From: Allokutzneria sp. A3M-2-11 16
GTDB taxonomy: Bacteria > Actinomycetota > Actinomycetes > Mycobacteriales > Pseudonocardiaceae
DNA length: 46,243 nucleotides
Direction of reading: 5' to 3'
Assembly: GCF_024213555.1 (NCBI RefSeq)
Contig: NZ_JANAVO010000025.1
Location: forward strand, 1-46,243
Shown here: piece after piece, positions 8,345-43,086 of the stretch
How positions within the stretch are numbered: position 1 is the stretch's first letter
How the letters are laid out: each line of letters begins with the position of its first letter
Position numbers and translations under genes: made by a program
The notes under the pieces: generated by a model
Told to the model about the DNA's origin: nothing
Databases searched by the model: none
The model's input: only the letters and a program-made list of their open reading frames with translations

Positions 8345-8370
8345 GGGCCGATGGTCGCACGAGCCGCCAC

Positions 8371-13936: not shown

Positions 13937-13937
13937 G

Positions 13938-14633
13938 ATGGGCCGCGAGTTCGAGCTGCGCAAGGAAGTCGTCCTGCCGGTGAGCCCGGAGGAGGTCTGG
14001 TCGGCGGTCGCGACACCGAACGGCCAGGCCGGTTGGTTCATGCCCGGTGAGGAGATCGGGCCGGGCGGCGCCGAGGTCTGGGACCCGCCCAAGCGCCTGG
14101 TCATCAAGCTGCCGCCGGGCGAGGACGGTTCCTTCCACGCGTTCGAGTACCTGGTCGAGGGCCGCGAGGACGGCACCGTGCTGCGATTCGTCCACAGTGG
14201 ACTGACCGGCGCGGGCTGGCCCGAGCAGTACGAGACGATGACCTCGTACGGGTGGGACTTCTACCTCCACTCGCTCGTGGAGTACCTGACCCACTTCCCC
14301 GGCCGCTCCACCGTCTACGTGGAGGCCGAGGGCCCGGCCGCGTCAGCGGAGGCGGCGGCGTGGGACCGGTTCGTCGCGGCGCTGGGCGTGTCCGCGGTCG
14401 GCGACAGGATCTCGGTGTCGCTGCCCGGAGTGCCGAGCCAGGACGGCGTCGTGGACATCATCAACGAGGCCTTCGTGGGCTTCCGCACCGAGGACTCGCT
14501 CGTGCGCTTCCACAGCCGCAAGCACATGTCCATGGCCGTCGCGGTGAGCCAGCACGCGTACAGCCCGATCGACGCCGACGCGTACACCGCGGCGTGGAAA
14601 GCGTGGCTCGACACGCAGTTCGAGGGGAGCTGA
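13938..14633 (+). CDS. SRPBCC (AHSA1-like) protein, tandem copy 2
   Basis: 231 residues and the same two-part layout as the copy before it; the two share most of their sequence, including the start MGREFELR and the end AWKAWLD.QFEGS. It begins one base after the stop of copy 1, with the ribosome binding site GAGGGGAG lying inside the last codons of copy 1. Differences cluster in the middle (DFYLHSLVEYLTHFPGRS) and in the C-terminal extension (SRKHMSMAVAVSQHAY), where a changed ligand preference could lie. Confidence 0.9.
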   Translation: MGREFELRKEVVLPVSPEEVWSAVATPNGQAGWFMPGEEIGPGGAEVWDPPKRLVIKLPPGEDGSFHAFEYLVEGREDGTVLRFVHSGLTGAGWPEQYETMTSYGWDFYLHSLVEYLTHFPGRSTVYVEAEGPAASAEAAAWDRFVAALGVSAVGDRISVSLPGVPSQDGVVDIINEAFVGFRTEDSLVRFHSRKHMSMAVAVSQHAYSPIDADAYTAAWKAWLDTQFEGS

Positions 14634-14634
14634 C

Positions 14635-15324
14635 GTGGGCCGCGAGTTCGAGCTGCGCAAGGAAGTCGTCCTCCCCGTGAGTCCGGAGGAGGTCTGGGCG
14701 GCGGTCGCGACACCGGAGGGCCAGGCCGCCTGGTTCATGACCGCCGAGGAGATCGGGCCGGACGGCGCCGAGGTCTGGGACCCGCCCAAGCACCTCGTCA
14801 TCAAGACCCCGCCCGGTGAGGACGGTTCCTTCCACGCGTTCGAGTACCTGATCGAGGGCCGCGAGGGCAGTGCGGTGCTCCGGTTCGTCCACAGTGGAAT
14901 GTCGGGCGACGCCTGGCCGGACGAGTACGTGGACATGACCGAGATGGGCTGGGACTGCTACCTCCACTCGCTGCGCGAGTACCTGGTCCACTTCGGTGGC
15001 CGCCCCGCCGTCTACGTGGAGGCCGACGGCCCGGCGTCGTCGACGGAGTGGGACGCGTGGAACCGGTTCGTCGAGCGGCTGGGCGTGGCGGAGGCCGGGG
15101 ACGAGGTCTCCCTGTCCGTGGCGGGTCTGCCGAGCCAGGACGGTGTCGTGGACATCATCCGTCCGGGCTTCGTGGGTATCCGCACCCAGGACTCGCTCGT
15201 TCGCTTCCACTGCAGGGTGCCCCTGGGCATGCCGGTCGCGGTGGGCCACCACGTCTACCGCCCGATCGACACCGGCGCGTACACCGAGGCGTGGAAGGCG
15301 TGGCTCCACTCGAACTTCTCCTGA
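14635..15324 (+). CDS. SRPBCC (AHSA1-like) protein, tandem copy 3
   Basis: 229 residues from a GTG, one base after copy 2, with the same GAGGGGAG site. It is the most diverged copy: WFMTAEE for WFMPGEE, GVAEAGDEVSLSVAGL, and a different C-terminus ending AWLHSNFS. The SRPBCC core motifs remain intact. Tail-to-head spacing of one base for all three copies shows tandem duplication inside one operon. Confidence 0.9.
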   Translation: MGREFELRKEVVLPVSPEEVWAAVATPEGQAAWFMTAEEIGPDGAEVWDPPKHLVIKTPPGEDGSFHAFEYLIEGREGSAVLRFVHSGMSGDAWPDEYVDMTEMGWDCYLHSLREYLVHFGGRPAVYVEADGPASSTEWDAWNRFVERLGVAEAGDEVSLSVAGLPSQDGVVDIIRPGFVGIRTQDSLVRFHCRVPLGMPVAVGHHVYRPIDTGAYTEAWKAWLHSNFS

Positions 15325-15355
15325 GTGTCGGGGGCGCGGGCTACCGTCATGCGCC

Positions 15356-16288
15356 ATGAACGCCTTCCCCGCGGTCGCCGACCCGTTCCGGCGGGAGCTG
15401 CTCGCGCACTGCTACCGGATGGTCGGCTCGGTGCACGACGCCGAGGACCTGGTGCAGGAGACCTACCTGCGCGCGTGGCGGGCGTACGACAAGTTCGAGC
15501 AGCGCTCGTCGGTGCGGACCTGGCTCTACCGCATCGCCACCCGCGTGTGCCTGACGGCGCTCGAAGGGCGGGGGAGGCGGCCGCTGCCGACCGGCCTCGG
15601 GGGACAGCGCTGCGATCCCGGTGACGATCTCGTGCGGCCGCCGGAGATCACCTGGCTGGAGCCCTTCCCGGACCGCGACGACGACCCGGCGTCGATCGTC
15701 GCGGGCCGGGAGAGCCTGCGCCTGGCGCTGGTCGCGGCGTTGCAGCACCTGCCGCCGCGCCAGCGCGCCGTGCTCGTGCTGCGCGATGTGCTCCAGTGGC
15801 GGGCGGCCGAGGTGGCGGAGGCGCTCGACGTCTCGGCCGCCGCGGTGAACAGCCTGCTGCAACGCGCCCGCGCGCAACTGGAAACCGTTGCGCCACAAGA
15901 AGACCAGCTCATCGAGCAGCCGGAGCAGCGGGCTCTGCTCGACCGCTACGTGCGCGCGTTCGAGGCCAAGGACGTCGCCGCGATCGTCGAACTGTTCACC
16001 GCCGACGCGGTGTGGGAGATGCCGCCGTTCACCGCGTGGTACCAGGGGCGGGCGGACATCGCGCGGCACCTCAGGCAGCGGTGCCCGGCCGTGCCCGGTG
16101 GGCAGCGCCTCATCCCGGTCAGCGCCAACGGCCAGCCCGCCTTCGCCAACTACCTGCGCACGGAGGACGGCGTGTTCCGCGCCTTCAACGTGCAGGTGCT
16201 GACGATCGGGCCCGCGGGCGTGAGCCATGCGGCCGTCTTCCTCGACACCTCGCTCTACGCGGCGTTCGGCCTGCCCGAGGTGCTCTGA
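15356..16288 (+). CDS. ECF sigma factor with C-terminal SnoaL-like domain (SigG/SigJ type)
   Basis: 310 residues. Sigma region 2 is FRRELLAHCYRMVGSVHDAEDLVQETYLRAWRAY, then VRTWLYRIATRVCL. Region 4 is LQHLPPRQRAVLVLRDVLQWRAAEVAEALDVSAAAVNSLLQRARAQL. From about residue 195 a SnoaL-like alpha+beta domain follows (LDRYVRAFEAKDVAAIVELFTADAVWEMPPF). Such ECF factors have no classical anti-sigma factor; the fused domain is thought to control activity. It lies 31 bases after SRPBCC copy 3 and may belong to the same operon. ATG at 15356 is chosen because it begins the sigma homology. Confidence 0.9.
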   Translation: MNAFPAVADPFRRELLAHCYRMVGSVHDAEDLVQETYLRAWRAYDKFEQRSSVRTWLYRIATRVCLTALEGRGRRPLPTGLGGQRCDPGDDLVRPPEITWLEPFPDRDDDPASIVAGRESLRLALVAALQHLPPRQRAVLVLRDVLQWRAAEVAEALDVSAAAVNSLLQRARAQLETVAPQEDQLIEQPEQRALLDRYVRAFEAKDVAAIVELFTADAVWEMPPFTAWYQGRADIARHLRQRCPAVPGGQRLIPVSANGQPAFANYLRTEDGVFRAFNVQVLTIGPAGVSHAAVFLDTSLYAAFGLPEVL

Positions 16289-16378: not shown

Positions 16379-17164
16379 ATGCGTGTTTTAGCCGCCCTTG
16401 CCGCCGCGGCCCTGCTCGTCACCGCTGGATCGGCCGTGGCCGGGACTCCTGAGGCCCCCGCCGGGGCCCGGCCCACCGTGGTGCTCGTGCACGGTGCCTT
16501 CGCCGAGTCCGCGAGCTGGGCCGGGGTGATCACCAGGCTGCGCGAACGGGGCTATCCGGTGATCGCCGCCGCGAATCCGCTGCGCGGCCTGGCCGGCGAC
16601 GCCGAGCACGTCTCCCGGGTGATCCGCAGCGTCAAGGGGCCGGTCGTGCTCGCCGGGCACTCCTACGGCGGTTCGGTGATCACCAACGCCGCCAGGGGAA
16701 ACCCCAACGTGAAGGGCCTGGTGTTCGTCGCGGCGTTCGCGCCGGAGCAGGGGGAGAGCGGGGCGGACATCGCCAAGCGGTTCCCCGGCGGCACCTTCGA
16801 CGAGGTCGTGGAGAAGATGCCGCTCGGCGACGGCAGCAACGACCTCTACATCCGTCAGGACCGGTTCTGGGACCACTTCGCCGCGGACGTGCCCGCCGCC
16901 GAGGCGCGGGTGATGGCCGCGACGCAGCGGCCGGTCCGCGACGTGGCGCTGGCCGAGAAGTCCGGCGCGCCCGCGTGGAAGACCGTGCCCTCGTGGTTCC
17001 TGCTGGCCGGGGCGGACCAGAGCATCACGATCGCGGCTCAGCGGTTCATGGCCGGGCGCGCCGGGGCGCGCGCCGTCGTCGAGATCACCGGGGGCTCGCA
17101 CGCGGTCGGGGTCTCCCACCCCGGCGCCGTGGTCGACCTGGTCGTCAAGGCCGCCCGGGGCTGA
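16379..17164 (+). CDS. Secreted alpha/beta hydrolase
   Basis: 261 residues with a signal peptide (MRVLAALAAAALLVTAGSAVAG). The hydrolase core follows: VVLVHGAFAESASW (oxyanion strand), nucleophile elbow GHSYGGSV, an acid in the strand WFLLAGADQSI, and catalytic His in GGSHAVGVSHP. It resembles the esterase group of plant salicylate esterase/hydroxynitrile lyase relatives. The substrate is unknown. A GGGAG site precedes the ATG. It lies 90 bases downstream of the sigma factor and overlaps the convergent SARP gene by 20 bp. Confidence 0.88.
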   Translation: MRVLAALAAAALLVTAGSAVAGTPEAPAGARPTVVLVHGAFAESASWAGVITRLRERGYPVIAAANPLRGLAGDAEHVSRVIRSVKGPVVLAGHSYGGSVITNAARGNPNVKGLVFVAAFAPEQGESGADIAKRFPGGTFDEVVEKMPLGDGSNDLYIRQDRFWDHFAADVPAAEARVMAATQRPVRDVALAEKSGAPAWKTVPSWFLLAGADQSITIAAQRFMAGRAGARAVVEITGGSHAVGVSHPGAVVDLVVKAARG

Positions 17165-18914
17165 GCGTCGGCGCGGGGGCCGGGGCGGGCGTCCCGGCCC
17201 CGAGCACCGCGGCGAGCCGTCGGGTCAGCGGGTCGATGGTGAATCCGTCCATTGTGGACCGGACGAGGTGCCACGCGACCAGCTCGCCCAGCGGCCGCCG
17301 CACGCTCGTGGTCGAGGTCCGGAGCAGGCCCGCCGCGTCGCCGAGGGTGAACGACGAGTGCGGCAGCAGCCCCAGCAGCGCCAGCAACCGTTGTGCGGGA
17401 AAGGAAAGCCGTTCCTGGGTGCGGGCGAAGGCGGCCGGCAGGGATGCCGCCTCGTCACCAGGGACGACCAGCGCGGCGAAGAAGTCCTCAGTGGACAGAT
17501 CGCGGGCGTGCTCGCGCAGCGACTGACCGCACCGGTTGGCCCCGGCGATCCGCACCGCCAGCGGGTTCCCGCCGCACAGCCGCACGATCTCCTCGGCCGC
17601 CCCGTACTCCGTCATCACCAGCGCCTCCCCGGTGACCCGGCCGAGCAGCGCGATCGAGTCCGCCGAGGGCAGCGGCCCCAGCTCCACCCGGGAGGCGCCC
17701 TGCACCGCGACCAGCCCGCTGAGCCGGTTCCGGCTGGTCACCACCACCGTGCACGGCGCGGTCCCGGGCAGCAGCGGCCGGATCTGGTCCGCGCTGTCGG
17801 CGTCGTCGACCATGATCAGCATCCGGCGGTCGGCCAGCGCGGACCGGAACAGCGCGGCGGCGGCGTCCACGCTCGCGGGCACCTCGGTCACCGGAACCCC
17901 CAGCGACACCAGGAAAGCCGTCAGCACGTCCAGCGGGGCGGCACCGCCGCGCAGGTCCACGTGCAGCTGCCCGTCCGGGAAGCGCTCCGCCGCGCGGTGC
18001 GCCCAGTGCAGCGCGAGCGCGGTCTTGCCGATCCCGGCCGCGCCGGTGATCACGACGATCGGCCCGGGTTCGGCGTCCAGCCGGGCCAGTTCCTCTTCTC
18101 TCCCAAGGAAGTCCGGCACCGCGAGCGGCAGCTGGCGCGGCAGCACCGCGCTCGCCCGCGCCGGGTTCAACGACAGGTCGCCGTCCAGGATCCGGCGCCG
18201 CAGCTCCCGCAGCGCCGCGCCCGGTTCGACGCCGAGCTCCTCGCGCAGCAGCACCTCGGCCCTGCGGTAGGTGGCCAGCGCGTCGCCCTGCCGCCCGCAG
18301 CGGTGCAGCGCCCGCATCTCCAGCTCCCACAGCCGTTCCCGCAGCGGGTGCGCGCTCGTCACCGGCGGCAGTTCGGCGGCGGCGACGTCGTGCCTGCCCA
18401 GCGCGAGCAGCGCCGAGAAGCGGTCCTCGGTCGCGTCCAGCCGCAGCTGCGTGAGCCGGGCCGCCTCCGCCTCCAGCGCCGGGGGCAGCGGCAGGTCCTC
18501 CAGCACGGCGCCGCGCCACAGCTCCAGCGCCCGGGTCAGCCGGTCCAGCGCCAGCCCGGCCTCGCCAGCGGCCAGCGCCGCCCCGCCCTCGGCGGCCAGC
18601 CGCTCGAAGCGCTCCGCGTCCAGCTCACCGGGCTCCACCCGGAGCAGGTACCCACCCCGGCTCGCGGGCAGCCTGGGCGCCCCGCCGTCCTCCAGCACCT
18701 TGCGCAGCCCCGCCAGGTACGACTGGAGGTTCGCGGCGGCCGACGGCGGCGGCTCGTCCCCCCACAGCTGCCCGACCAGCTCGGCGGTCCGGACCGGCCG
18801 GTTCGCCCGCGACAGCAGGATCGCCAGCGCGACCCGCTGCTTGCGGCGGTTCAACACGACCGGTGCGCCGCCCGCGTCACGGACGTCCAATGCGCCGAGC
18901 ACCCGGAATCTCAC
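17145..18914 (-). CDS. SARP/AfsR-type regulator with BTAD and NB-ARC ATPase domains
   Basis: 589 residues from GTG at 18914. Residues 1-95 form an OmpR-like SARP DNA-binding domain (FRVLGALDV, RRKQRVALAILLSRAN, YLAGLRKVLE, GGYLLRV). Residues about 96-245 are the bacterial transcriptional activation domain. An NB-ARC-like ATPase follows with P-loop GAAGIGKT at 291-298, Walker B LIMVDDAD, and PLLPGTAPCTVVVTSRNRLSG. The chain ends after the ARC2-like helices and has no TPR array. SARPs usually activate neighbouring secondary-metabolite genes, and this one is divergent from the polyketide operon, so it is the likely pathway activator. Confidence 0.92.
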   Translation of the reverse strand: MRFRVLGALDVRDAGGAPVVLNRRKQRVALAILLSRANRPVRTAELVGQLWGDEPPPSAAANLQSYLAGLRKVLEDGGAPRLPASRGGYLLRVEPGELDAERFERLAAEGGAALAAGEAGLALDRLTRALELWRGAVLEDLPLPPALEAEAARLTQLRLDATEDRFSALLALGRHDVAAAELPPVTSAHPLRERLWELEMRALHRCGRQGDALATYRRAEVLLREELGVEPGAALRELRRRILDGDLSLNPARASAVLPRQLPLAVPDFLGREEELARLDAEPGPIVVITGAAGIGKTALALHWAHRAAERFPDGQLHVDLRGGAAPLDVLTAFLVSLGVPVTEVPASVDAAAALFRSALADRRMLIMVDDADSADQIRPLLPGTAPCTVVVTSRNRLSGLVAVQGASRVELGPLPSADSIALLGRVTGEALVMTEYGAAEEIVRLCGGNPLAVRIAGANRCGQSLREHARDLSTEDFFAALVVPGDEAASLPAAFARTQERLSFPAQRLLALLGLLPHSSFTLGDAAGLLRTSTTSVRRPLGELVAWHLVRSTMDGFTIDPLTRRLAAVLGAGTPAPAPAPTLSPGRP

Positions 18915-19221
18915 GTCGTGCAGCGTAGGGAGCCGCGCTTAACGCGCACTAATCGCTGTTTTGCCGTGCTATATGAAAGCGATCATGGAGTTCTCCAGAT
19001 CATTCCACGATCGGATTGGTTTGGCGGGACTCTGCGTAATCGCTGAGCCGCTCCACCTGCGTGAAGGATGATTCCCGAACGTGCGACTTACGCGCCCCTT
19101 TGGTCGCGGCTAACGTCGATTAACGACCCGGCCTGTCGAGTTGATGACCGTGGTCGCGTCATTCTTTCCGCATTCTTTTCAGTCGCTCTCGCGCGCCCGT
19201 AAACGATGGGATGTGTTCGTG
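18915..19221. promoter_or_regulatory. 307-bp divergent promoter region with SARP-like direct repeats
   Basis: No gene is seen here. Two places show paired elements ten bases apart: TTAACG/TAATCG starting at 18939/18950 and TAACG/TAACG at 19111/19121. The nonamer TAATCGCTG occurs at 18950-18958 and again at 19037-19045. SARP proteins bind short direct repeats close to one helical turn apart, so these are candidate operators for both directions. The repeats are visible; binding is inferred. Confidence 0.4.
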
Positions 19222-19779
19222 ATGACCACTTCGGCCACCAGCCTGCTCGACCGCAAGTACGCGAGGCGGTTCGCGATGTTCGACGTGGACGGGGACGGGT
19301 ACCTGGAGGCGGGGGACTTCACCGAGCTGGCGAATCGGCTGATCGAGGGGCTGGGGGCGGTCCCGGACTCGGCGACGGCCCAGCGCGTGCGGGAGGGCTA
19401 CCAGGACCTGTACGCGGCGCTGATCAGGGAGATCGACACTGACGGCGACGGCCGGATCTCCCAGCGGGAGTTCGTCGCCGGGATGGCGCGCGTGGCCGGG
19501 GACCGGGCCGGGTTCTCCCGGATGATCGAACCGTTGGCGCGCACCAACCTCCAGCTGTGCGACGCGGACGGGGACGGACTGCTGGACCGGCCGGAGTTCG
19601 CCCGGCTGCTCGGCCTGTTCAACGCCGTTGCGCTGCCCTCGGCCGAACGGATCTTCGACCGGCTGGACACCAACCGCGATGGCATGCTCTCCGTCGCCGA
19701 GATCCTCGACGCGCTCTGCGACTTCTACCTCAGCGACGATCCCGGGTCACCGGGAAACCTGCTCTTCGGCGCGGTCTGA
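19222..19779 (+). CDS. Four-EF-hand calcium-binding protein (calerythrin-like)
   Basis: 185 residues, nearly all accounted for by four EF-hands with loops at 21-32, 72-83, 114-125 and 149-160 (DVDGDGYLEAGD, DTDGDGRISQRE, DADGDGLLDRPE, DTNRDGMLSVAE). All loops keep the 1, 3, 5 and 12 ligands; loop 1 has Asp instead of Glu at position 12. The protein resembles calerythrin of Saccharopolyspora and is probably cytosolic. It is nine bases upstream of the FabG-like gene and opens the polyketide operon, an unusual companion for such genes. It may buffer calcium or make the pathway calcium-responsive; the link is not known. Confidence 0.88.
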   Translation: MTTSATSLLDRKYARRFAMFDVDGDGYLEAGDFTELANRLIEGLGAVPDSATAQRVREGYQDLYAALIREIDTDGDGRISQREFVAGMARVAGDRAGFSRMIEPLARTNLQLCDADGDGLLDRPEFARLLGLFNAVALPSAERIFDRLDTNRDGMLSVAEILDALCDFYLSDDPGSPGNLLFGAV

Positions 19780-19788
19780 GGGGCAGCC

Positions 19789-20595
19789 ATGTTCGGTCTC
19801 GAAGGAAGAACGGTGCTGGTCACCGGTGCCTCCAGGGGTATCGGCAGGGCGATCGCGCTGGCCTGCGCCGAGGTGGGCGCCGACGTGGCGCTGCTGGCGC
19901 GCGGCACCGACGCGCTGCGCGAGGTCGCCGAGATCGTCGAGAAGCTCGGCCGCCGCGCCCTCGTGCTGACCTGCGACGCCGGTGACGAGGACCAGGTGCG
20001 CGCGGCCGTCGCGGACACCGTCGCGCAGTTCGGCAGGCTCGACGTGCTGGTCAACAACGCGGGCGGATTCGGCTTCGCCGGGCCGTTCCTGGAGCTGACC
20101 GCGCGGGACTGGGCCGATGCGATCCGGCTCAACCTGGACTCCGTCGTCCACTTCTGCCGTGCGGCCGGCCGGGTCATGGTGCGCCAGCGCTCCGGTTCGC
20201 TGATCAACATCGGTTCGGTGTCCGGGGTCGGCGGGGTGCCGATGCTCTCGCACTACGCGGCGGTGAAGGCGGCGGTGGTCTCGCTGACCAGGTCGCTGGC
20301 GGCGGAGTGGGCCGCGAGCGGCGTCCGGGTCAACTGCGTGGTGCCCGGCTGGATCACCACCGAGCTGACCAGGGCGATGTCCGGGCAGGAGGAGGTCTCC
20401 GAGGGGCTGCTGCGCGCCGTGCCCGCCCGGCGGTGGGGCGATCCGGAGGACGTCGCGGGCGCGGTGGTCTACCTGGCCGGTGACGCGGCGAAGCTGACCA
20501 CCGGCTCCTGTCTGACCCTGGATGGCGGCATGACCAGCACGATCGGCGGTCCCACGCTGATCGACATGCTGGAGATGGGGCGGATTCCGGTATGA
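19789..20595 (+). CDS. FabG-like short-chain dehydrogenase/reductase
   Basis: 268 residues with the classical SDR signature: TGASRGIG for the NADPH loop, NNAG, then catalytic Ser in IGSVSGVGG and YAAVK, and the PGWI C-terminal segment. Sequence features fit a 3-oxoacyl-ACP reductase or a related alcohol dehydrogenase. GAGGGG lies five bases before the ATG. Its stop overlaps the start of the AT-ACP gene by the sequence ATGA. A separate KR domain exists in the megasynthase, so this enzyme may act on another carbon or a later intermediate. Confidence 0.9.
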   Translation: MFGLEGRTVLVTGASRGIGRAIALACAEVGADVALLARGTDALREVAEIVEKLGRRALVLTCDAGDEDQVRAAVADTVAQFGRLDVLVNNAGGFGFAGPFLELTARDWADAIRLNLDSVVHFCRAAGRVMVRQRSGSLINIGSVSGVGGVPMLSHYAAVKAAVVSLTRSLAAEWAASGVRVNCVVPGWITTELTRAMSGQEEVSEGLLRAVPARRWGDPEDVAGAVVYLAGDAAKLTTGSCLTLDGGMTSTIGGPTLIDMLEMGRIPV

Positions 20596-21905
20596 GCGCC
20601 AGGACCGTTCTGCTGTTCCCCGGGCTCGGGGCGTACTCCACGGGCATGCTGCGGCAGGCCGCGGGTGAGCACCCGGAGGTCGCGGAGACCTTCGCCGGGA
20701 TCGACCGCGCCGCCGCCCGCCACGGTGTCCCCTCGGTCGCCCGTGTGGTGCTGCACGAGGAGCCGCGGCCGATCCGGGAGATGCTGGCGTTGCCGACCGA
20801 GGTGCTCCAGCTGGCGATCTTCGGCGCCTCCGTGGTCACGCACCGGGTGCTGGCCGCTGCGGGACTGCGGCCCTATGCGTTGCTGGGCCACAGTTTCGGC
20901 GAGATGGCCGCGCTCGTCGCCGCCGGGGCGTTCACGCTCGACGACGGGGTCCGCCTGGTGTGCGCCCGTGCCGAAGCCCTCGCCGAGTGGGAGGGCAGGG
21001 GGGCGATGGCCGCGATCGGCGCCAACGAGGCGGTGACGCTGCACCTGATCGGCGCGATGGACGAGCCGGACCTCGCGGTCGGGTGCCTCAACGCGCCGCG
21101 GCAGACGGTGATCAGCGGCCCCGTTGAGGCGATCGACCGGGCCGGGCGGGTGGCGAAGGCGCTGGACCTGTTCTACGCCAAGCTGCACCTGCCGTACGCC
21201 TCGCACCACCCGAGCGCGCGGCCCGCGGTCGGCAGGTTCCTCGGGCTGATGGACGGGATCGAGCAGAAACCCTTGGAGCACAAGGTGTATTCGCCAGTGC
21301 ACGGTCGTTGGTACAGCGACGCCGACGACCTGAAGTTCGCCATCGCGGAGTGCATGGTGCTGCCGGTGCGCTTCACCGACGCGGTCCGCGACCTGCACTC
21401 CTCCGGCGCGACGGTCTTCGTGGAGTCCGGTGCGCTGAACGCGCTCACGCGCTGCGTCGAGCTGACGGTTCCCGGAGTGCGGACGGTCGCGCCGCTGCTG
21501 GACTCCTCGGACGAAACAGGGGGGCTCCGGCGCGTGCTCACCGGTGAGTCCGATGTGCGTCCGCCGCGCACCGACACCGCTTCGGCGGTCGTCGCGCCCG
21601 TGGAGATTCCCGCGGCGCGCGAGCCCGAGCTTGGCAGCTCCGCGGTGCCGGACAAGGACACCGTGCTGGCGAAGCTGCGCGCGCTGTACGCGGCGGCGCT
21701 GGAGTACCCGGAGGACGTGCTCACCGAACGGGCCCTGCTCGAAGCCGAACTCGGCGTGGACTCGTTGAAGCAGACCGCGTTGCTGTCGCGGGTGGTCGAG
21801 GAGTTCGGCCTGCCCGACCGGCCCGGTGAGCTGCGAGTGTGGGAGCTGCCGTCGCTCGGGGCGATCGCCGACCACGTGCTGGGCGCGGAGCGGGTTCGGT
21901 CATGA
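20592..21905 (+). CDS. Stand-alone acyltransferase-acyl carrier protein didomain (TcsA-like)
   Basis: 437 residues. Residues 1 to about 300 form an acyltransferase: LLFPGLGAY, nucleophile S101 in GHSFGE, catalytic H205 in YASHHPS. After a Pro/Ala linker, residues about 350-437 are an acyl carrier protein with the phosphopantetheine site S391 in LGVDSLKQ, a form like that of polyunsaturated fatty acid synthase ACPs. The YASH motif is associated with methylmalonyl rather than malonyl specificity in modular PKS; GHSFGE does not decide it. An AT-ACP without KS also occurs as TcsA/AllA in FK506 allylmalonyl biosynthesis. Both ends overlap neighbours by ATGA, indicating coupled translation and a stoichiometric complex with the next protein. 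Confidence 0.88.
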   Translation: MSARTVLLFPGLGAYSTGMLRQAAGEHPEVAETFAGIDRAAARHGVPSVARVVLHEEPRPIREMLALPTEVLQLAIFGASVVTHRVLAAAGLRPYALLGHSFGEMAALVAAGAFTLDDGVRLVCARAEALAEWEGRGAMAAIGANEAVTLHLIGAMDEPDLAVGCLNAPRQTVISGPVEAIDRAGRVAKALDLFYAKLHLPYASHHPSARPAVGRFLGLMDGIEQKPLEHKVYSPVHGRWYSDADDLKFAIAECMVLPVRFTDAVRDLHSSGATVFVESGALNALTRCVELTVPGVRTVAPLLDSSDETGGLRRVLTGESDVRPPRTDTASAVVAPVEIPAAREPELGSSAVPDKDTVLAKLRALYAAALEYPEDVLTERALLEAELGVDSLKQTALLSRVVEEFGLPDRPGELRVWELPSLGAIADHVLGAERVRS

Positions 21906-24900
21906 GCGAACGGGTTGTCCTTGTCACGGGCGGAGTCCGGGGGCTGGGCCGGGCCATCTCGCTCGCGTTCGCCGGGCACGGCGACCGGGTGATCGCCAAC
22001 TACTTCCACGCGCGGGAGGAGGCGGTCGCCTTCGAGGCCGAGCTGGCGGCGCGGGGCCGCCTGGTCGAGCTGATCAGGGCTTCGGTGGCCGACCGCGGGC
22101 AGGTCGATGCGATGTTCGACGAGATCGCGGCCCGCCACGGGCGCTTGGACGTGCTGGTGAACAACGCGGCGTCCGGCGCGTTGCTCCCACTGTCCGAAGT
22201 GGACGAATCGCACTGGCAGCGGGCCTTCGACACCAACCTGCGCGGCAGCCTGTGGTGCGCGCGCAGGGCGGCGGAGCTGATGACGGGGGAGCACCCGGCG
22301 ATCGTCAACCTGTCCTCGCTCGGCAGCAGCCTGGTGATCAGCGACTACGCCACGGTGGGCACGACGAAGGCCGCGGTCGAGGCGCTGACCCGTTACCTCG
22401 CCGTCGAGTACGCCGGGCGCGGAATCCGGGTGAACACCGCGTCGGGTGGCCTGCTGGACAACGCGATCGCCGGGATGTTCCCCGACGCTCAAGCCCTCGC
22501 GGACCAGGTCAGGGCGGCCACGCCGCTGGGCAACCGCCTCGGCACCGAGCGGGAGCTGGCCGAGCTGGTGGTCTTCCTCGCCTCCCCTGCGGCGTCCTGG
22601 ATCACCGGCCAGACCGTGGTGGCCGATGGCGGGCTCTCCCTGGGCTCGATGTCGTTGTCCCCCAAGCCTTCGGTGCCCGAGCCGGTGCCTGAGCCGGTTC
22701 CTGGCGCGGTCGCCGTGGTCGGGATGGGTGTGGTCACTCCGGGCGCCAACAACCCGGACGAGCTGTGGAAGGTGTTGTCCGGTGAGGACAACGTCTTCGT
22801 GGAGCCGGAGTGCTTCGACATCTCCTCCTTCCACTCGACGGACCCGGCCGCCGAGGACCGCTCGTACACGCCACGATCCGGCTTCATCACCTCCTTCGTT
22901 CCGCATCCCCGACTACAGCCGGTTGTGGAGCGGAGCACCCTTTGGCTGCGGCACAGCCTGCTCACCGCACTCGACGGCGTCACCGTCGGCGACCGGTGTT
23001 TCGCCGCGTTCGGCGCGACCGTGGACGGCAGCCAGGAACTGGAGGAGTACCTGGTCTACGCCGGAGCCCGGAAGCATTTGGGAGACAACGGCACTCTCCG
23101 CGACCGGTACGTGCGTGAGGTGAATCCCTCGGAGTACCTGCCACATCGCGTCGGCCGCAACGCGATCGATGGGCTGCTACCGGACAAGACCGAACTGGTG
23201 ATGGTGGACACGGCGTGCTCGTCCTCGCTCTACGCGGTGGACCTCGGCATGAAGGCGCTGCGAGAAGGCTCGTGCGAGGTCGCCGTCTGCGGCGGAACGT
23301 TTGCTTACAGTGCACGGAATCTGGTGCTCTTCTCGAAGCTCTCCGGGTTGTCCAGGTCGGGCCGGGTGCGGTCCTTCGACCGGGCCGCGGACGGTGTGCT
23401 GTTCTCCGACGGTGCCGGAGTCGTGGTGCTCAAACTGCTCGACAAGGCCCGTGCGGACGGTGATCGGGTCCTCGGCGTGATCGAGGGCGTCGGCCTGTCC
23501 TGCGACGGGCGTGGCAAGGCGATCTACGCGCCCAACGAGGCGGGCCAGGTACTCGCGCTCCGCCGGGCTTATGAGCGCACGGGAACGGACCCCGCCTCGG
23601 TCCACTGGGTGATCGGCCACGCGACGGGCACACAGGCGGGGGACAGCACGGAACTGGCCGCCTTGCACCGCGTCGCGGGTTCCGGCCCGCCCGCGCTGTT
23701 GTCGTCGAACAAGCCGATCGTCGGGCACACCGGATGGAGCGCGGGCATCGTCTCGCTGGTGCAGGCGTTGTCCGGCCTGCAGCGTGGATCGGTGCCCGCG
23801 CAACGGTATCTGCGGCAACCCATCCCGATCCTGGACAGCAGCAGGTTCCGGCCGATGACCACGGCAACTCCTTTGCCAGCGAAGCGACCCCGCCGCGTCG
23901 CCGTGTCGTCGTTCGGGTTCGGCGGCACCAACGCGCACCTCCTGCTCACCGACGCGCCGTCAGCTCACGAAGGCACTATCTCCGCTGACGAGCTGGTCGT
24001 CGTCGGCTGGTCAGCCCACCTGCCCGGGTTCGACGCCGCCGAGACATCGGCTTGGTTCCGCGGTGAGCGCGCCGCCCCGGACCCGGACTTCGGCGCCGAC
24101 TACCCGCTGCCGGACTTCGCCGAGGTCCGGCTTCCCCCGGCGACGCTGCGCACGATGGACCGCGGCCAGATCATGATCCTGCGCGCGGCCGGTCAGCTCG
24201 ATCCCCGGGTGCGGGCGGTGTGCGAAGAACTCAAGGACACCACCGGCGTCGTGGTCGGTCACACCGGGCCGACGAGGCGCGCCGTGCAGTACGCGCTTCG
24301 GTGCTACCTGGGCGATCTACGCCGCCGCGTCGGCGAGGACCCCGGGTTCGACGAGCTGGAGCGGGAGGTGCGTGCGGCGGTGCCGCCCAGCACGGAGGAC
24401 GCCTTTCCCGGGATCATGCCCAACCTGATCCCGGCCCGGCTGTCGGCGTTGGCCGACTGGCACGGGCTGAACCTCACCGTGGACACGGGACTCTCCGCCG
24501 GGATCGACGCGGTGCGTTGTGCGGAGCGGTATCTCCGGCACGGTGACCTCGACGTGGCCGTGGTGGCCGGTATCAGCGGCAACAGCGGCCCGGAGCTCGC
24601 CTCGGTGCTCGCTGACCAACCGCCCGTCGCGGAGGGCGCGTTCATGGTGGTCCTGACCCGCCGTGCCACGGCGTCGCGGCACGGCCTCCCCGTTCTCGGC
24701 ACGCTCCGCACCGAGCTGGCCGCGGTTGATCCTTCGTCCAGGCCGCAAGCGCTCCGCCCGCTGGCCGGGCTCGGCCGCACCTATCTCGGCGCGGACCCGA
24801 TTCTGGCCATGACCGCGGCCTTGGCCGCCGAACGCGAGTGCACGATCGGTGCGGCCGAGACGTGGGGCCCGCGGATCATCGTCTCCCCAACGCGTGCCGC

Positions 24901-26941
24901 TGTCGAGCGGATGGAGCGCCGCCTCGTGCCGGTGCCCGCACGTGTCGTCCGAGCGGAGCTGCCCGCGGTTCCCGACGGCGCACTGGTGATCACGGAGGAG
25001 ACCGAGGACGTGCCGAACGCCAGGCACATCCGCGTGATCGTCGACGTCGGGGCTTCCCGGACCGCTCCGGATGACCTCTCTGCCTTGCTGCGCCTGCGAA
25101 AGGTGCACGACCTGGCCTACCTCGCGGTGCAGCGGTGGGAGGACGGCGGTTCGTTCGCGGTGCTGATGGTCGACGCCCTGCGCGACGGGGTCGTCCACCC
25201 CGCCACCGCGCCGTTCACCGGCTTGGTGAAGAGCCTCGCCAGGGAGAGGTTCGCCTTCGCCGTCCTCACCGACTCGAAGGATGTCCGGCCGGACCTCCTC
25301 GCCACGGAGTCGGCTCTGGCGCGTGAACTGGCCGTCGCGGTGTACTCCGGCGGCACGCGGATGGAGCACGTCCTGTTCGCGGCGCCTGTCCATCCCGGCC
25401 CTCCGCAACGGCTTGAGGTCGTCGTCGCGGTCGGTGGAGCGCGCGGGCTGACCGCACGGCTGCTCGCCGACCTGGCCCGTGCGCACCGGCCGGAGATCTA
25501 CGTGCTGAGCCGGACCTCCCCTGGAGAGCGAACCGATGTCGGTACGCGCCAGTCGTTCATCGCCGCCAATCCACAGTGGACAGTCCAGGAGGCCTCGACG
25601 GAGTTCGACCGACTGCTGGCGGGTGCGCGGGCACGGCGTGAGCTCGACCTGCTCACCGGTCTGTGCGGTCCGGGGAAGGTGCGCCACATTCCCTGTGACA
25701 TCACCGATTCGGCCGCTGTCATGGCCGCGATCGACCAGGTTCCCCCGCGCGTGGACCTGCTGATCAACGCCGCCGGGCTGCACAACGGGGGTGAGGTCCG
25801 GTCGGTGCCGCTGGAGCGGGCACGTGCCGTTCGGGACACCAAGCTGCTCGGCTACCTCAACCTCCGCCGCGCCTTCGCGGGCCGGGAACCCGCGCGGTGG
25901 GTCAACTTCGGCTCGCTGCTCGCGGTGCTGGGCTGGCCGGGGGAGGCGGACTACTGCTCCGGCAACGACATCCTGAACGCGGCGGCCACCTGGCAACGGC
26001 ATTTCGGCGGCACCCACGAGACGACGCTGTCCTGGGCGCTGTGGCGGGAGTCGGGTTTCGCCGCCCAACCGGTGATCCGAGACCACCTGCTCCGGCAGAA
26101 CGCGCTCACCGGGCTCTCCGACCGTGACGGCTGCGCGCTGTTCGCGGCCGAGTTGTCCAGTGTGGACAGTGCTCCTGAGGTCACCTACCTCGGTCCGGCG
26201 GAGCGTGCCCTGATCTCACCGCGCTGGTGTCCCTCCGCGGGCTTCCTGGAACACCACCGCGTCCGTGGTCGCGCCGTCGTACCCGCCGCGATGCTCGTCG
26301 ACCTGGTCGCGCGTCCCGGGGAGGTGGTCACCGACCTGGAGTTCCACGCGCCGGTCCTGCCGGGCTCGGACTACCGGGTGACCGGCGATCGCGTCCTGAG
26401 CGATCTCATCGCGCCGAACGGCGCTCTGCTCAAGGCCGATCGCGTGCACATGACGTACACCATCCACAAAGGATCGTCCGGTTCTCCCGTGGTGGAACGC
26501 GTTCCAGGCTCACCGATCACACCGCCCTTCTACGGGCCGGGAGGCGAGGTCGAGCTCAGCGGTCCCTTCGCCTCGCTCCGCGATGTCCGTACTTCCGACG
26601 CGGGCGGGTCGGCGGTGTTCGCACCGTCGTTGGGAGAGTGGGACTTCGCCTCATTCCGCATCCCCGTGCTGCTCGTCGATGCTCTGGTGCAGCTCCTGTT
26701 GCTGCCGCGCACTGCGATTCCAGTGCGCATCGGCCGGATCGAACTGCGCACCGACCTCAACGATGTAGAGCTGCTTTCCCGTTATGGCAATGAGATCGTG
26801 CTCGCCACCGACACCTCCGGCTCCGCTGTGGCGAGTGTGGCCGGAGACGTGCTCGCCGTGGTTTCCGGAGTGCGGACAAGACAGGGAGAACCCAGTGAGC
26901 GATCAGAGCCTGCAAGCGCTGGCGCGGCTCGTACACGGTGA
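21902..26941 (+). CDS. Type I megasynthase: ER(FabL-like)-KS-CLF-like-KR-DH
   Basis: 1679 residues. Residues 1-250 form an SDR with TGGVRGLG and Y149-X6-K156, the FabL-type enoyl-ACP reductase spacing. After a PEPVPEPVP linker, a ketosynthase (about 268-690) has C439 (VDTACSSS), H573 (GHATGT) and H609 (IVGHTG). About 695-925 is a second, truncated KS-like unit with VDTGLSAG in place of the Cys, reading as a chain-length-factor-like domain. A ketoreductase spans about 1010-1440, with the NADPH loop GGARGLTAR at 1178-1186, K1314, S1338, Y1351 and N1355. A double-hotdog dehydratase (1443-1655) has H1452-X3-G-X4-P and D1593-X3-Q. There is no AT, ACP or thioesterase; the AT-ACP gene upstream supplies the first two. 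The KS-CLF pairing recalls TcsB and PfaC. Confidence 0.85.
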   Translation: MSERVVLVTGGVRGLGRAISLAFAGHGDRVIANYFHAREEAVAFEAELAARGRLVELIRASVADRGQVDAMFDEIAARHGRLDVLVNNAASGALLPLSEVDESHWQRAFDTNLRGSLWCARRAAELMTGEHPAIVNLSSLGSSLVISDYATVGTTKAAVEALTRYLAVEYAGRGIRVNTASGGLLDNAIAGMFPDAQALADQVRAATPLGNRLGTERELAELVVFLASPAASWITGQTVVADGGLSLGSMSLSPKPSVPEPVPEPVPGAVAVVGMGVVTPGANNPDELWKVLSGEDNVFVEPECFDISSFHSTDPAAEDRSYTPRSGFITSFVPHPRLQPVVERSTLWLRHSLLTALDGVTVGDRCFAAFGATVDGSQELEEYLVYAGARKHLGDNGTLRDRYVREVNPSEYLPHRVGRNAIDGLLPDKTELVMVDTACSSSLYAVDLGMKALREGSCEVAVCGGTFAYSARNLVLFSKLSGLSRSGRVRSFDRAADGVLFSDGAGVVVLKLLDKARADGDRVLGVIEGVGLSCDGRGKAIYAPNEAGQVLALRRAYERTGTDPASVHWVIGHATGTQAGDSTELAALHRVAGSGPPALLSSNKPIVGHTGWSAGIVSLVQALSGLQRGSVPAQRYLRQPIPILDSSRFRPMTTATPLPAKRPRRVAVSSFGFGGTNAHLLLTDAPSAHEGTISADELVVVGWSAHLPGFDAAETSAWFRGERAAPDPDFGADYPLPDFAEVRLPPATLRTMDRGQIMILRAAGQLDPRVRAVCEELKDTTGVVVGHTGPTRRAVQYALRCYLGDLRRRVGEDPGFDELEREVRAAVPPSTEDAFPGIMPNLIPARLSALADWHGLNLTVDTGLSAGIDAVRCAERYLRHGDLDVAVVAGISGNSGPELASVLADQPPVAEGAFMVVLTRRATASRHGLPVLGTLRTELAAVDPSSRPQALRPLAGLGRTYLGADPILAMTAALAAERECTIGAAETWGPRIIVSPTRAAVERMERRLVPVPARVVRAELPAVPDGALVITEETEDVPNARHIRVIVDVGASRTAPDDLSALLRLRKVHDLAYLAVQRWEDGGSFAVLMVDALRDGVVHPATAPFTGLVKSLARERFAFAVLTDSKDVRPDLLATESALARELAVAVYSGGTRMEHVLFAAPVHPGPPQRLEVVVAVGGARGLTARLLADLARAHRPEIYVLSRTSPGERTDVGTRQSFIAANPQWTVQEASTEFDRLLAGARARRELDLLTGLCGPGKVRHIPCDITDSAAVMAAIDQVPPRVDLLINAAGLHNGGEVRSVPLERARAVRDTKLLGYLNLRRAFAGREPARWVNFGSLLAVLGWPGEADYCSGNDILNAAATWQRHFGGTHETTLSWALWRESGFAAQPVIRDHLLRQNALTGLSDRDGCALFAAELSSVDSAPEVTYLGPAERALISPRWCPSAGFLEHHRVRGRAVVPAAMLVDLVARPGEVVTDLEFHAPVLPGSDYRVTGDRVLSDLIAPNGALLKADRVHMTYTIHKGSSGSPVVERVPGSPITPPFYGPGGEVELSGPFASLRDVRTSDAGGSAVFAPSLGEWDFASFRIPVLLVDALVQLLLLPRTAIPVRIGRIELRTDLNDVELLSRYGNEIVLATDTSGSAVASVAGDVLAVVSGVRTRQGEPSERSEPASAGAARTR

Positions 26942-28709
26942 CTGTGAGCCGGAGTTCCGCGAGGAGCTGCGGAAGATCTTCCGCGACGAGCTGTTCGCGC
27001 CGCGTGAGGGCCTCACCTACCAGGAGGAGCTGCGGCTGACCTACGAGCGAATGCGCTTCGCCAACGACCACGTCAGCGCTGACGAACTCGTCGAGCACCC
27101 GCACCGGCTGTTCGCGTTGCTGGAGTGGTCCGCCGTGGTGAGCCCGTCCCTGTTCGTCGCGATGGTGACGCACTACTGCGGCGCCTTGGCGGCGATCCGC
27201 GAACTCGGTGCGGGACGCGACGACCTCGACGAGTACATCACCGCTTTGGAGAAGATGACCGCGACGGGCGCACTGCTGATCACCGAGCTGGGTTACGGCA
27301 ACAGCCACGTGTCGATGCGCACGCGGGCGACCTATGACCACGAGCGCCGGGACTTCGTGCTGCACAGCCCTGACGAGGCCGCGCGCAAGTTCATGCCCAA
27401 CGTCGGCCTCCCCGGAGTGCCCAAGCTCGCGACGGTCGCCGCGCAGCTCAACATCCGCGGTGAGGATCGTGGCGTGTTCCTGTTCGTCGTGCGCCTCCGT
27501 GACACCGACGGCCCGCTTCCCGGAGTGTCGATCACCCAGCTGCCCGAGGCGACCCAGGTGCCCATGGACTACGCGGTGATCTCCTTCGACCAGGTGCGGA
27601 TTCCGTTGAGCTCCCTCCTGCACGACAGCGCTTCGATCACCGAGGAGGGTGGCTTCCACGATCCCGTCGAGGACCAGAAGCTGCGCCTGGTGCGGTCGCT
27701 CACCGTCGCCCAGAGCGTGCGCACCGCCCAGACCGCCGCGCTCGCTTCGGTCGCTCGGGCCAGCGCCCAGATCGCTTTGCGTTACTCGATGCGCCGTCCC
27801 GCCATGGAGCCGGACAGCCCGTGGGTTCCCGTGATCCGCCACCGCACGCAGCAACGCTCGCTCTACACGGCCCTGGCCACCGCCTACGCCCTGACCTGCC
27901 ACGCCAACCGCGCGAAGACCGCCAAGGCCACCGCGATGACCTGCAACTCCGCCAACCGCCCCGTCCCACCGTCCACTTTGGACCCGCTGGCGCGAACCCT
28001 GTCGCTGACCAAGGCGATCACCACCTGGAAGACCGAGCGCCTGACCGCCGAGTGCAGGCAACGGTGCGGCGCGCGCGGGGTGTTCACGGTCAACCGCCTG
28101 CTGGACTACCAAGGCTTGGCGATCGTCAGCGAAGCCGCGGGCGGCGACAACTTCCTCCTGTGCCTGGACGCCGCGCGATCAATGGTCGCCGAGGTGCGGT
28201 ACACCCCGCCGACCTCCGACCTGCTCGATCGCGACATGTGGCTCAACCTCGCCAGGACCCGCGAACGCGAACTCCACAGGGCCTTGAAGTCCCAGGACTC
28301 CCTCACCGAGGCCGTGGAGTTCGCCGAGGCACACGGCAGCCGCCTGATCCTGGAGAGCCTGTTGGCCTCTGTGTCCTCTGCGTCCACTGTGGACTCGCCC
28401 GAGGCCGCAGCGGCACTGCGCCCGCTCTGCGCCCTGTACGCGCTGACCGAGATCAACTCGTCGGCGGCGTGGTACCTGTGCGAGGGCCTGTTGACCCCGG
28501 CCCAGGTCCGTGCGATCCCGCAGCGCCTCAACGAGCTGTGCGAGGAGCTGACCCCGCACGTGGACCTCCTCCTCGCGGCCTTCGAGCTGCCCGAGGACGT
28601 CCTGCGCGTCCCGATCACCGACGGCGACCTGTCCATGGTGGCGGGTGCGGTCGGCCTCCCGGAGCAGCGCGCCGCACTGGAGCAACCCCTGGCGGTCCCT
28701 GCGCCGTGA
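26895..28709 (+). CDS. Acyl-CoA oxidase/dehydrogenase-like flavoprotein
   Basis: 604 residues from GTG at 26895, with CAGGGAGA in front and 47 bp of overlap with the megasynthase gene. The layout follows peroxisomal-type acyl-CoA oxidases: N-terminal helices, the FAD loop ITELGYGNSHVSMRTRATYD near 129-148, a beta domain (FVLHSPDEAARKFMPN), then C-terminal helices with CGARGVFTVNRLLDYQ and SEAAGGDNFLLCLDAAR, where the catalytic Glu is expected. It should introduce a C=C bond into an acyl-CoA or acyl-ACP. The FK506 cassette also has an acyl-CoA dehydrogenase (TcsD/AllD), which oxidises the terminal carbons. Here it is the last gene of the operon. Confidence 0.85.
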   Translation: MSDQSLQALARLVHGDCEPEFREELRKIFRDELFAPREGLTYQEELRLTYERMRFANDHVSADELVEHPHRLFALLEWSAVVSPSLFVAMVTHYCGALAAIRELGAGRDDLDEYITALEKMTATGALLITELGYGNSHVSMRTRATYDHERRDFVLHSPDEAARKFMPNVGLPGVPKLATVAAQLNIRGEDRGVFLFVVRLRDTDGPLPGVSITQLPEATQVPMDYAVISFDQVRIPLSSLLHDSASITEEGGFHDPVEDQKLRLVRSLTVAQSVRTAQTAALASVARASAQIALRYSMRRPAMEPDSPWVPVIRHRTQQRSLYTALATAYALTCHANRAKTAKATAMTCNSANRPVPPSTLDPLARTLSLTKAITTWKTERLTAECRQRCGARGVFTVNRLLDYQGLAIVSEAAGGDNFLLCLDAARSMVAEVRYTPPTSDLLDRDMWLNLARTRERELHRALKSQDSLTEAVEFAEAHGSRLILESLLASVSSASTVDSPEAAAALRPLCALYALTEINSSAAWYLCEGLLTPAQVRAIPQRLNELCEELTPHVDLLLAAFELPEDVLRVPITDGDLSMVAGAVGLPEQRAALEQPLAVPAP

Positions 28710-28749: not shown

Positions 28750-28815
28750 GTGCAAGGCTTCGAACGGTTCGCCTCCGTCCACGCCGATCGCCGAAAAGCG
28801 CGCACTCGGTGCTGA
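28750..28815 (+). CDS. Possible 21-residue small ORF
   Basis: GTG at 28750 has AGGAAGAG eight bases upstream and opens 21 codons (VQGFERFASVHADRRKARTRC) rich in Arg, ending TGA at 28815. It sits in the gap between the acyl-CoA oxidase-like gene and the GNAT gene. The ribosome binding site is good but there is no conservation evidence; it could be a small peptide, a leader or a gene remnant. Confidence 0.2.
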   Translation: MQGFERFASVHADRRKARTRC

Positions 28816-28892
28816 CGGTCGACCTGGTCGATGAGCCCGGTCATCCGGGTCCTCACCCTCTTCGCGGCGAAGCTCAAGCAAGGTTGACCGAC

Positions 28893-29471
28893 ATGCCGAA
28901 GCTCGTTTCGCCGGTCTGCGCGCCCGGAAGTCTCGCGAACTCCCCACAGCCCGCGATCCCCTTGGCGAGCCTGACCCTGCGACCATGGCGCACCGAAGAT
29001 CGCCCAACCCTGCTCACCGCCTTCGCGGAACCTGACATCCAACTGTGGCACCGGTTGTCGCTGGAGTCCGTCGCCGAGGCCGAGGAGTGGGTCACGAGCT
29101 GGGTGCTGCGTTGGGCGGCGGAGGAAGCGGCCAGCTGGGCGATCACCCTTGGGGCGCAGGTGCTCGGACAGGTCGGGCTACGCGGAGTGGACCTCGCCGA
29201 AGGGTACGCGGAACTGTCCTACTGGGTGCTTCCCGAGGCGCGTGGTCAGGGCGTTGCGGCGCGCGCCACCGAAGCCCTTGCCGACTGGGCGTTCGACGTG
29301 GTCGGGCTGCACCGGCTGGAGATCGGGCACTCGGTGCGCAACACGGCGTCCTGCGCGGTGGCACGACGGCTCGGATTTCCCTTGGAGGGCACGAAGAAGA
29401 GCGCCTACCTGCACGCGGACGGCTGGCACGACGCCCATCTGCACGCTCGGGTCAAGCCCGCCGCGCGGTGA
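28893..29471 (+). CDS. GNAT-family N-acetyltransferase (RimJ/RimL type)
   Basis: 192 residues from ATG at 28893. The start of the fold is LASLTLRPWRTEDRPTLLTAF; the acetyl-CoA loop is YWVLPEARGQGVAARATEAL, followed by VGLHRLEIGHSVRNTASCAVARRLGFPLEG. These are the normal RimJ/RimL motifs. It lies 183 bases after the polyketide operon in the same direction, so it may be a separate gene or a tailoring acetyltransferase; the sequence does not decide. The 3' end overlaps the convergent membrane-protein gene by 20 bp. Confidence 0.88.
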   Translation: MPKLVSPVCAPGSLANSPQPAIPLASLTLRPWRTEDRPTLLTAFAEPDIQLWHRLSLESVAEAEEWVTSWVLRWAAEEAASWAITLGAQVLGQVGLRGVDLAEGYAELSYWVLPEARGQGVAARATEALADWAFDVVGLHRLEIGHSVRNTASCAVARRLGFPLEGTKKSAYLHADGWHDAHLHARVKPAAR

Positions 29472-34368: not shown

Positions 34369-34550
34369 CTCCTGGCCTTCCCGGGACGTCGTCAGCGGGC
34401 CGTGCTCTGCGGAGCGCTGCTCACCGTCGGCGGGACCACGAAACGCTCCTCCAGATGGGTGCGAACCGAACACGAGGCAGCACACATGGTTGCACGCCAT
34501 CCCTCGACCGCGTGAGACGCAATCACATCCATGGAACCCGATCCGGGAAC

Positions 34551-34594
34551 TTAGCACTCTCCGCACTTGTCGTATGATGTACGGTATGGTGTAC
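34551..34594 (+). promoter_or_regulatory. Promoter of the SnoaL-like gene with overlapping TetR-type operator
   Basis: A -35-like TTAGCA (34551-34556), a 16-base spacer and TATGAT (34573-34578) form a plausible promoter. A 23-bp sequence at 34572-34594 matches the perfect palindrome at 36002-36024 in 17 of 23 positions and covers the -10 element, as expected for repression. Confidence 0.6.
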
Positions 34595-34615
34595 GGCGAA
34601 CGAGGAGGAGAGCAG

Positions 34616-37773: not shown

Positions 37774-37781
37774 GAGCCTTG

Positions 37782-41984: not shown

Positions 41985-42011
41985 GGGACGCCCCATTGGT
42001 GTCGGCAGGGT

Positions 42012-42029
42012 GTGTGGCGTACGCCTCAC
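42012..42029. promoter_or_regulatory. Near-palindrome centred on GGCGTACGCC upstream of the beta-lactamase-like gene
   Basis: GTGTGGCGTACGCCTCAC is symmetric except for one pair and lies 28 bases upstream of the ATG. It is a candidate operator; no regulator for it is identified in the window. Confidence 0.35.
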
Positions 42030-42103
42030 CCTGACAACGCGTCCCCGTTCCGCGCACTCCTTTTCGCGTCCGCGGAAACCATCGCGGCACCAGCGAAAAA
42101 CCA

Positions 42104-43050: not shown

Positions 43051-43086
43051 GCGCTCACCCTACGGATAGTGGCAGTGTGTGACCTC

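Follow-up and report, generated by a model that had tools for sequence, protein, structure and literature searches.

A conserved operon for a predicted reducing acyl-chain synthase with a fused ER-KS-CLF-KR-DH megasynthase in Allokutzneria

What is made by an operon whose polyketide-type domains stand in the order of none of the familiar synthases? The question is raised by contig C17 (46,243 bp, hereafter the window) of the 8.8 Mb genome of Allokutzneria sp. A3M-2-11 16, where five plus-strand genes lie opposite a minus-strand gene for a Streptomyces antibiotic regulatory protein (SARP)-type regulator. They encode an EF-hand protein, a free-standing short-chain dehydrogenase/reductase (SDR), a combined acyltransferase and acyl carrier protein (AT-ACP), a megasynthase of enoyl reductase (ER), ketosynthase (KS), chain-length factor (CLF), ketoreductase (KR) and dehydratase (DH) domains, and an acyl-CoA oxidase (ACOX)-fold flavoprotein (Table 1). 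An earlier reading made from the window alone (the sequence-only reading) had placed these six genes; Pfam and NCBIfam searches recovered all of them, with the positions and domains that it gave. We show below that this is a real, conserved operon within a broad family. From sequence comparison we consider it reasonably likely that the operon specifies a synthase from a distinct bacterial family that builds acyl chains iteratively and with full reduction, its product probably being a methyl-branched acyl-ACP.

Pfam was run on the six operon proteins and 19 other window open reading frames (ORFs). In the megasynthase it resolved an SDR, a KS, a second partial KS, a KR (residues 1196-1404 of protein P0005) and a weak DH, and the active-site motifs are intact. 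The N-terminal domain is an SDR whose best SDR model was PRK08063 FabL (239 bits vs 180 for the next SDR-only model, NCBIfam) and whose best SDR structure match was 3oic, annotated as an enoyl-ACP reductase; because the score lies below the model's own cut-off of 328, we regard it as a FabL-like domain and not as a FabL equivalog. The FabL signature Asn-Xn-Ser-Xn-Tyr-X6-Lys, as given in the available text of PMC9260719, is present as IVNLSSLG ... DYATVGTTK, with the Y-X6-K at residue 149. The CLF region is a second PF00109 stretch that aligned with its own KS family profile over 82 columns (probability 75, E 2.6e-5), and the KS-CLF pair is collinear with a PfaC-like KS-CLF encoded in this genome (BLASTP, 30% over 710 columns, E 4e-52). 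The ER and CLF calls, the two assignments on which the sequence-only reading had said it could fail, thus both held. The DH carries the HxxxGxxxxP motif, and the DH domains of relatives L033 and L036 scored 2e-9 and 3.6e-11. Structural comparison was made with model residues 2-423, the KS, and as the 50 KS entries listed all lay within 3 Z units, their rank says little.

A CLF-specific scan of named genomes found 120 stretches matching the pattern, of which 46 loci were confirmed (47 with the window). ER, KS and CLF follow one another in that order in all 46 named loci, so the architecture is not a product of chance. KR comes next in 45 (in the remaining locus the contig stops before it), a DH could be recognised in 41, and 43 have the AT upstream; three loci start too late on cut contigs to show it. 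In 40 of the 46 a single frame holds the ER, KS, CLF and KR matches; KR lies in another frame in L060, L071, L078 and L083, ER does so in L052, and L070 is cut. The KS cysteine is present in 47/47 loci and the corresponding CLF cysteine is missing in 46/47, the exception being L083 from Kutzneria CA-103260 (Cys at the CLF position near 10061-10735). By motif there is one ACP in most loci and two in 13. The ER tyrosine occurs in 45/47 loci; L039 and L040, both Streptomyces (ER near 7601-8371), have Phe in place of the catalytic Tyr (GFSACGTAK), a possible natural loss of ER.

The members belong to Streptomycetaceae, Pseudonocardiaceae, other Actinomycetota and, in three cases (L047, L051, L056), Bacillota, and the distribution is patchy. 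Strong matches (E < 1e-190) occurred in 6 of 60 near-relative genomes; at order level the family was found in 12 of 397 genomes at E < 1e-78 and in 16 at 1e-25, and at phylum level in 2 of 396 at 1e-40 (own genome included in each). Of the 20 order-scan matches, five with E 1e-33 to 1e-56 possibly belong to other CLFs, and 12/397 genomes remain without them. The sequence-only reading had allowed that the same architecture might already be described with a known product. In the open-licence literature searched we found no such case, neither a description of this megasynthase family and domain order nor a named product for the ER-KS-CLF-KR-DH arrangement. The accessible text of a 2011 survey of pfa-like clusters describes no ER-KS-CLF order, its figure aside (PMC3098273), and the accessible part of a 2026 survey makes no mention of one (PMC13291983). 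Among the neighbours of relatives are P450, FAD oxidoreductase, flavin monooxygenase and SnoaL genes (gene cluster c3 in 20 and c4 in 14 of 47 loci), which suggested a tailored polyketide in other branches. Beside one relative, L031:12411-17303 is a single frame joining KR and UDP-glycosyltransferase domains, hinting at a glycolipid-like product in that branch.

Among the closest known systems are the polyunsaturated fatty acid (PUFA) synthases PfaA-D, with which the window shares a one-chain KS-CLF pair of PfaC-type homology, KR, DH and ER activities, AT and ACP, and iterative logic. A PUFA-synthase relative would use malonyl-CoA to build a long linear lipid, either saturated or unsaturated. 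Besides the KS-CLF collinearity, this is favoured by the malonyl-type AT motifs of other family branches, by the 13 loci with two ACPs, and by a family KS hidden Markov model that gave the genome's two PfaA-type KS 273 and 287 bits, compared with 195-223 for the best pieces of five modular KS. However, three other type I KS of relatives reached the PfaA level (277-295 bits) and PfaC-type KS scored only 172-173. A tree built from 20 reference KS and 13 of the 47 family KS placed the family in a clade of its own (support 100/100, stem 1.35), apart from modular, PfaA-type, PfaC-type and FabF/type II KS; deeper forks were weaker (89/84), and the Pfa rows were not characterised enzymes but the two further pfa-like KS-CLF clusters of this genome (G000:C38:196327-203732 and C4:120731-128160). 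The domain order also differs from that of PfaA, PfaC and PfaD as outlined in the accessible parts of PMC3098273 and PMC13291983. The operon proteins include no gene of the pfaA order, KS-MAT-ACP(n)-KR (PMC3098273, accessible text), and no KS match on the contig lies outside the megasynthase. In place of a separate PfaD-type ER there is the FabL-type SDR at the megasynthase N-terminus, and the AT-ACP is a small separate gene with a single ACP and a YASH-motif AT. We therefore hold the PUFA interpretation to be unlikely.

The sequence-only reading was right to call the synthase self-contained and to say that its domain order is not that of a modular, an enediyne or a standard PUFA system. Enediyne polyketide synthases (PKSs) have the single-chain order KS-AT-ACP-KR-DH-phosphopantetheinyl transferase (PPTase), and by Pfam the operon proteins contain no PPTase domain. 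In ishigamide-type and other reducing type II systems KS and CLF are free-standing subunits, whereas those of the window are fused. Mycocerosic acid synthase (Mas), which works with the acyltransferase PapA5, is an iterative reducing synthase with a methylmalonyl-type AT, features predicted for the window operon too, but it has a single-chain cis-AT order, an ER of the medium-chain dehydrogenase/reductase type and no CLF; structure 9d2y, considered in this comparison, matched over the KS region (residues 290-710). RerA of Rhodococcus erythropolis PR4, outlined in the available text of PMC11563203 as KS-AT-ACP-ACP-KR-DH with a PPTase-thioesterase partner and as a maker of polyenes, is also a cryptic actinobacterial iterative type I synthase, but without CLF or ER and in another order.

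A second tree, of all 47 family KS, united nine loci (the window, L038-L043, L045 and L046) in one clade with SH-aLRT 100. It includes Allokutzneria sp. NRRL B-24872 (L038), four Saccharothrix members and Streptomyces, and each locus has one ACP by motif. Its AT motif is YASH in 9/44 ATs, exactly this subclade, and xxFH in the other 35 (three cut contigs without AT were left out); the label needs one change on the family tree. In PKS acyltransferases YASH points to methylmalonyl and xAFH to malonyl extender units; the window motif is in register with a modular AT (8jpt), and from its sequence methylmalonyl is the predicted extender. The sequence-only reading was silent on this motif, and the breadth of the family lay beyond a single-sequence view. 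The ACOX-like gene is confined to exactly the nine YASH loci, and a FabG-like SDR lies just upstream of the AT-ACP in seven of them, with 57-63% homologues directly upstream in L041, L042, L043, L045 and L046; in L039 and L040 the sole SDR is one of 39-41% and lies downstream.

The flavoprotein has the ACOX fold with its C-terminal alpha domains. In all nine members the catalytic Glu is missing, being Gly in the window, L038, L039 and L040 and Ala in L041, L042, L045, L046 and L043 (the last by eye); we take the position to be that of the base E421 of rat ACOX. This loss makes simple alpha,beta-desaturation doubtful, and for a flavoprotein without the usual base 2,3-desaturation and oxygenation or some other flavin reaction are equally likely. 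We found no paper on ACOX and its catalytic glutamate in the open-licence literature searched.

The sequence-only reading had likened the locus to the FK506 allylmalonyl cassette (allAKRD/tcs), and an extender- or starter-unit cassette of that kind would pass a short, flavoprotein-oxidised acyl-ACP to a modular PKS. The likeness stands for the small operon with AT-ACP, ketosynthase (here KS-CLF) and an oxidising flavoprotein of the acyl-CoA dehydrogenase/oxidase family, and KS domains abound outside this locus (93 PF00109 matches genome-wide). The cassette, according to the accessible text of PMC11959593, consists of a KS, an AT-ACP, the carboxylase/reductase AllR, on which it depends, and the dehydrogenase AllD; for its reductase and dehydratase steps it is believed to draw on enzymes from outside the cassette. 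In contrast, Pfam found no crotonyl-CoA carboxylase/reductase (AllR) homologue among the operon proteins (a zinc-dehydrogenase ORF at 41812-44127, 13 kb away, was among the other ORFs scanned), the flavoprotein lacks the catalytic Glu, and the contig carries no modular PKS. The fusion of KR, DH and ER, correctly read from the sequence, suits several rounds of extension, and the "short" product had no specific support. An FK506-like role thus appears improbable. On the features tested, membership of both the PUFA and the FK506 type fails, although working logic is shared with each.

On chain release, the sequence-only reading had noted that no release enzyme is present. This is true of the window operon, whose proteins include no thioesterase by Pfam, but four Saccharothrix relatives carry a gene of the wax ester synthase/diacylglycerol acyltransferase (WS/DGAT) type (HSLSDG or HSISDG) 34-61 bp upstream of the SDR. 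The L045 copy was searched against Pfam and NCBIfam (265 of 310 bits, below the NCBIfam cut-off), and the other three were assigned by BLAST cluster. Because this gene adjoins the Saccharothrix operons, acyl transfer to an alcohol is the best hint on release, suggesting release onto an alcohol in those members. In the window genome a single full-length WS/DGAT match was found, on a different contig, along with two partial matches.

Taking gene order, homologies, motifs, conservation and loss in a sister species (below) together, we infer the following scheme for a reducing synthase. The AT-ACP would load the extender, predicted to be methylmalonyl, onto its own ACP; the KS would condense while the CLF shapes the pocket; and KR, DH and the FabL-type ER would reduce each new beta-keto unit. 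Repetition of the cycle would give a saturated, probably methyl-branched acyl-ACP, which, or a carrier-bound intermediate of which, the free SDR and the ACOX-fold flavoprotein may tailor. Release could occur by acyl transfer to an alcohol or other carrier, with the transferase of the window genome encoded elsewhere, and the SARP probably switches the operon on. A bolder version, which we put forward only tentatively, is that these loci form an undescribed class of bacterial iterative megasynthases in Actinomycetota and Bacillota (FabL-type ER with KS-CLF-KR-DH and a separate AT-ACP), in which the window branch independently evolved Mas/PapA5 logic: methylmalonyl extension to multimethyl-branched chains, WS/DGAT transfer to an alcohol, in proposed parallel to HxxxD-acyltransferase transfer in the Mas system, and a repurposed, base-less ACOX fold.

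Several observations count against this scheme. The window AT pairs YASH with GHSFG and not GHSQG; among ten modular ATs of the same genome five have YASH with GHSQG, four HAFH with GHSIG (by eye) and one is odd. Extender choice therefore stays a prediction, and the window's YASH is a methylmalonyl signature by a rule that we presume to apply here. The DH match (PKS_DH_N 7e-4) is under the Pfam cut-off, and ER may not be essential throughout the subclade, as two of its nine members have the Phe substitution. The ACOX site falls in a loop that is modelled with low confidence (residues 410-419), the WS/DGAT gene is not in the window operon, and the SARP may have other targets, since a congener keeps it without the operon.

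That congener also bears on whether the window holds an island that looks intact but is non-functional, being silent or in decay. All six genes are present in one congener (G001; SARP identity 81-82%), and in a third (G002) the flanking genes and SARP (90%) are kept while window positions 19095-27804 are absent, with two short ACOX relics remaining at the locus (L112); the operon can thus be lost as a block. This loss, the flavoprotein without its catalytic Glu and an apparent frameshift near DH in Actinoalloteichus would fit decay. Against it, all six genes are under purifying selection relative to the congener (dN/dS 0.29 for SARP, 0.31 EF-hand, 0.22 SDR, 0.17 AT-ACP, 0.21 megasynthase and 0.19 ACOX-like), the active-site motifs are intact, and the subclade persists in Saccharothrix and Streptomyces, making decay very unlikely. 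The frameshift (L043/L032, Actinoalloteichus caeruleus DSM 43889) lies between KR and the ACOX-like gene, near the DH end, and is either real or a sequencing error.

An iterative synthase of this kind would combine KS-CLF chemistry in the manner of type II systems with a FabL-type reductase and a separate AT-ACP, all within a reconstitutable two-gene core of ~6.3 kb. It would be a minimal fully reducing iterative synthase with a CLF and a natural test of CLF control over reduced-chain length, and the single-branch AT switch sets up a natural contrast between malonyl-type and methylmalonyl-type members. A candidate for new flavin chemistry acting on acyl chains is the acyl-CoA oxidase without its base. 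If the family is undescribed, some fifty clusters in sequenced genomes would receive their first annotation.

Table 1. Genes of the operon and its regulator, and domains of the megasynthase, in window coordinates
Feature	Position	Strand	Evidence
SARP-type regulator with NB-ARC (AfsR-like, short)	17145..18914	-	BTAD 4e-43, NB-ARC 1.3e-10 (Pfam)
Divergent promoter region, SARP/operon	18915..19221	.	Intergenic; blocks conserved with L038
EF-hand protein, calerythrin-like	19222..19779	+	EF-hand_1 1e-22; best structure match calerythrin 1nya
Free-standing FabG-like SDR	19789..20595	+	adh_short_C2 1.1e-70 (Pfam)
AT-ACP (GHSFGE, YASH; one ACP, GVDSLKQ)	20592..21905	+	Acyl_transf_1 1.4e-29, PP-binding 1.8e-6
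ER-KS-CLF-KR-DH megasynthase, 1,679 aa	21902..26941	+	Pfam/NCBIfam domains, family gene order
FabL-type ER domain (N..S..Y-X6-K)	21902..22642	+	PRK08063 FabL match, 3oic, motif
KS domain	22709..24010	+	Active Cys in DTACSSS; HATGT; NKPIVGH
CLF-like domain, Leu at KS Cys position	24041..24988 (end approximate)	+	Second PF00109 stretch
KR domain	25016..26203 (start approximate)	+	Ser in NFGSLL, Tyr in ADYCSGN; Pfam KR 5.1e-32
DH double-hotdog region	26234..26908	+	HRVRGRAVVP, VLLVDALVQ; PKS_DH_N 7e-4
ACOX-fold flavoprotein	26895..28709	+	ACOX_C_alpha1 + ACOX (Pfam); catalytic Glu to Gly, codon 28140-28142

The compact plus-strand layout facing the SARP gene agrees with the sequence-only reading. 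The EF-hand and SDR genes are separated by 9 bp (19779/19789), and 4-bp overlaps join SDR to AT-ACP (20592-20595) and AT-ACP to megasynthase (21902-21905). Given a GTG start at 26895, which is common to the congener and preceded by GGGAGA, the ACOX-like gene overlaps the megasynthase 3′ end (stop 26941) by 47 bp. The EF-hand start is better placed at ATG 19222, and the congener has the same ATG. Candidate SARP binding repeats (15-nt and 8-nt pairs in the window, an 11-nt pair in L038) included none common to both species.

The EF-hand gene was rejected as a core part beyond the genus: a close homologue adjoins the operon in the congener alone, so that close linkage is seen in just two Allokutzneria genomes. 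EF-hand paralogues occur in all eight subclade genomes searched (1 to 10 each), and the L041 genome has nine, of which the one close to the locus is a weak match (30%). An alpha/beta hydrolase (16379-17164) was set aside as release enzyme, being unmatched among the ORFs picked in the congener locus and mostly missing from that of G002. A GNAT gene (28809-29471) is a neighbour and not part of the operon, as it is kept in G002 without the operon and is unmatched among the ORFs picked in G001.

Elsewhere in the window, two tandem AHSA1-like genes (13241-14633) precede the gene for an ECF-type sigma factor whose tail is SnoaL-like (14996-16288), and a 1,655-aa open frame at 29980-34947 has two von Willebrand A-type domains as its sole Pfam matches. 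At 36050-40019 an ABC transporter ATPase with a DrrA-type C-terminus adjoins an ABC and UvrA DNA-binding protein, a gene pair resembling drug-resistance pairs.

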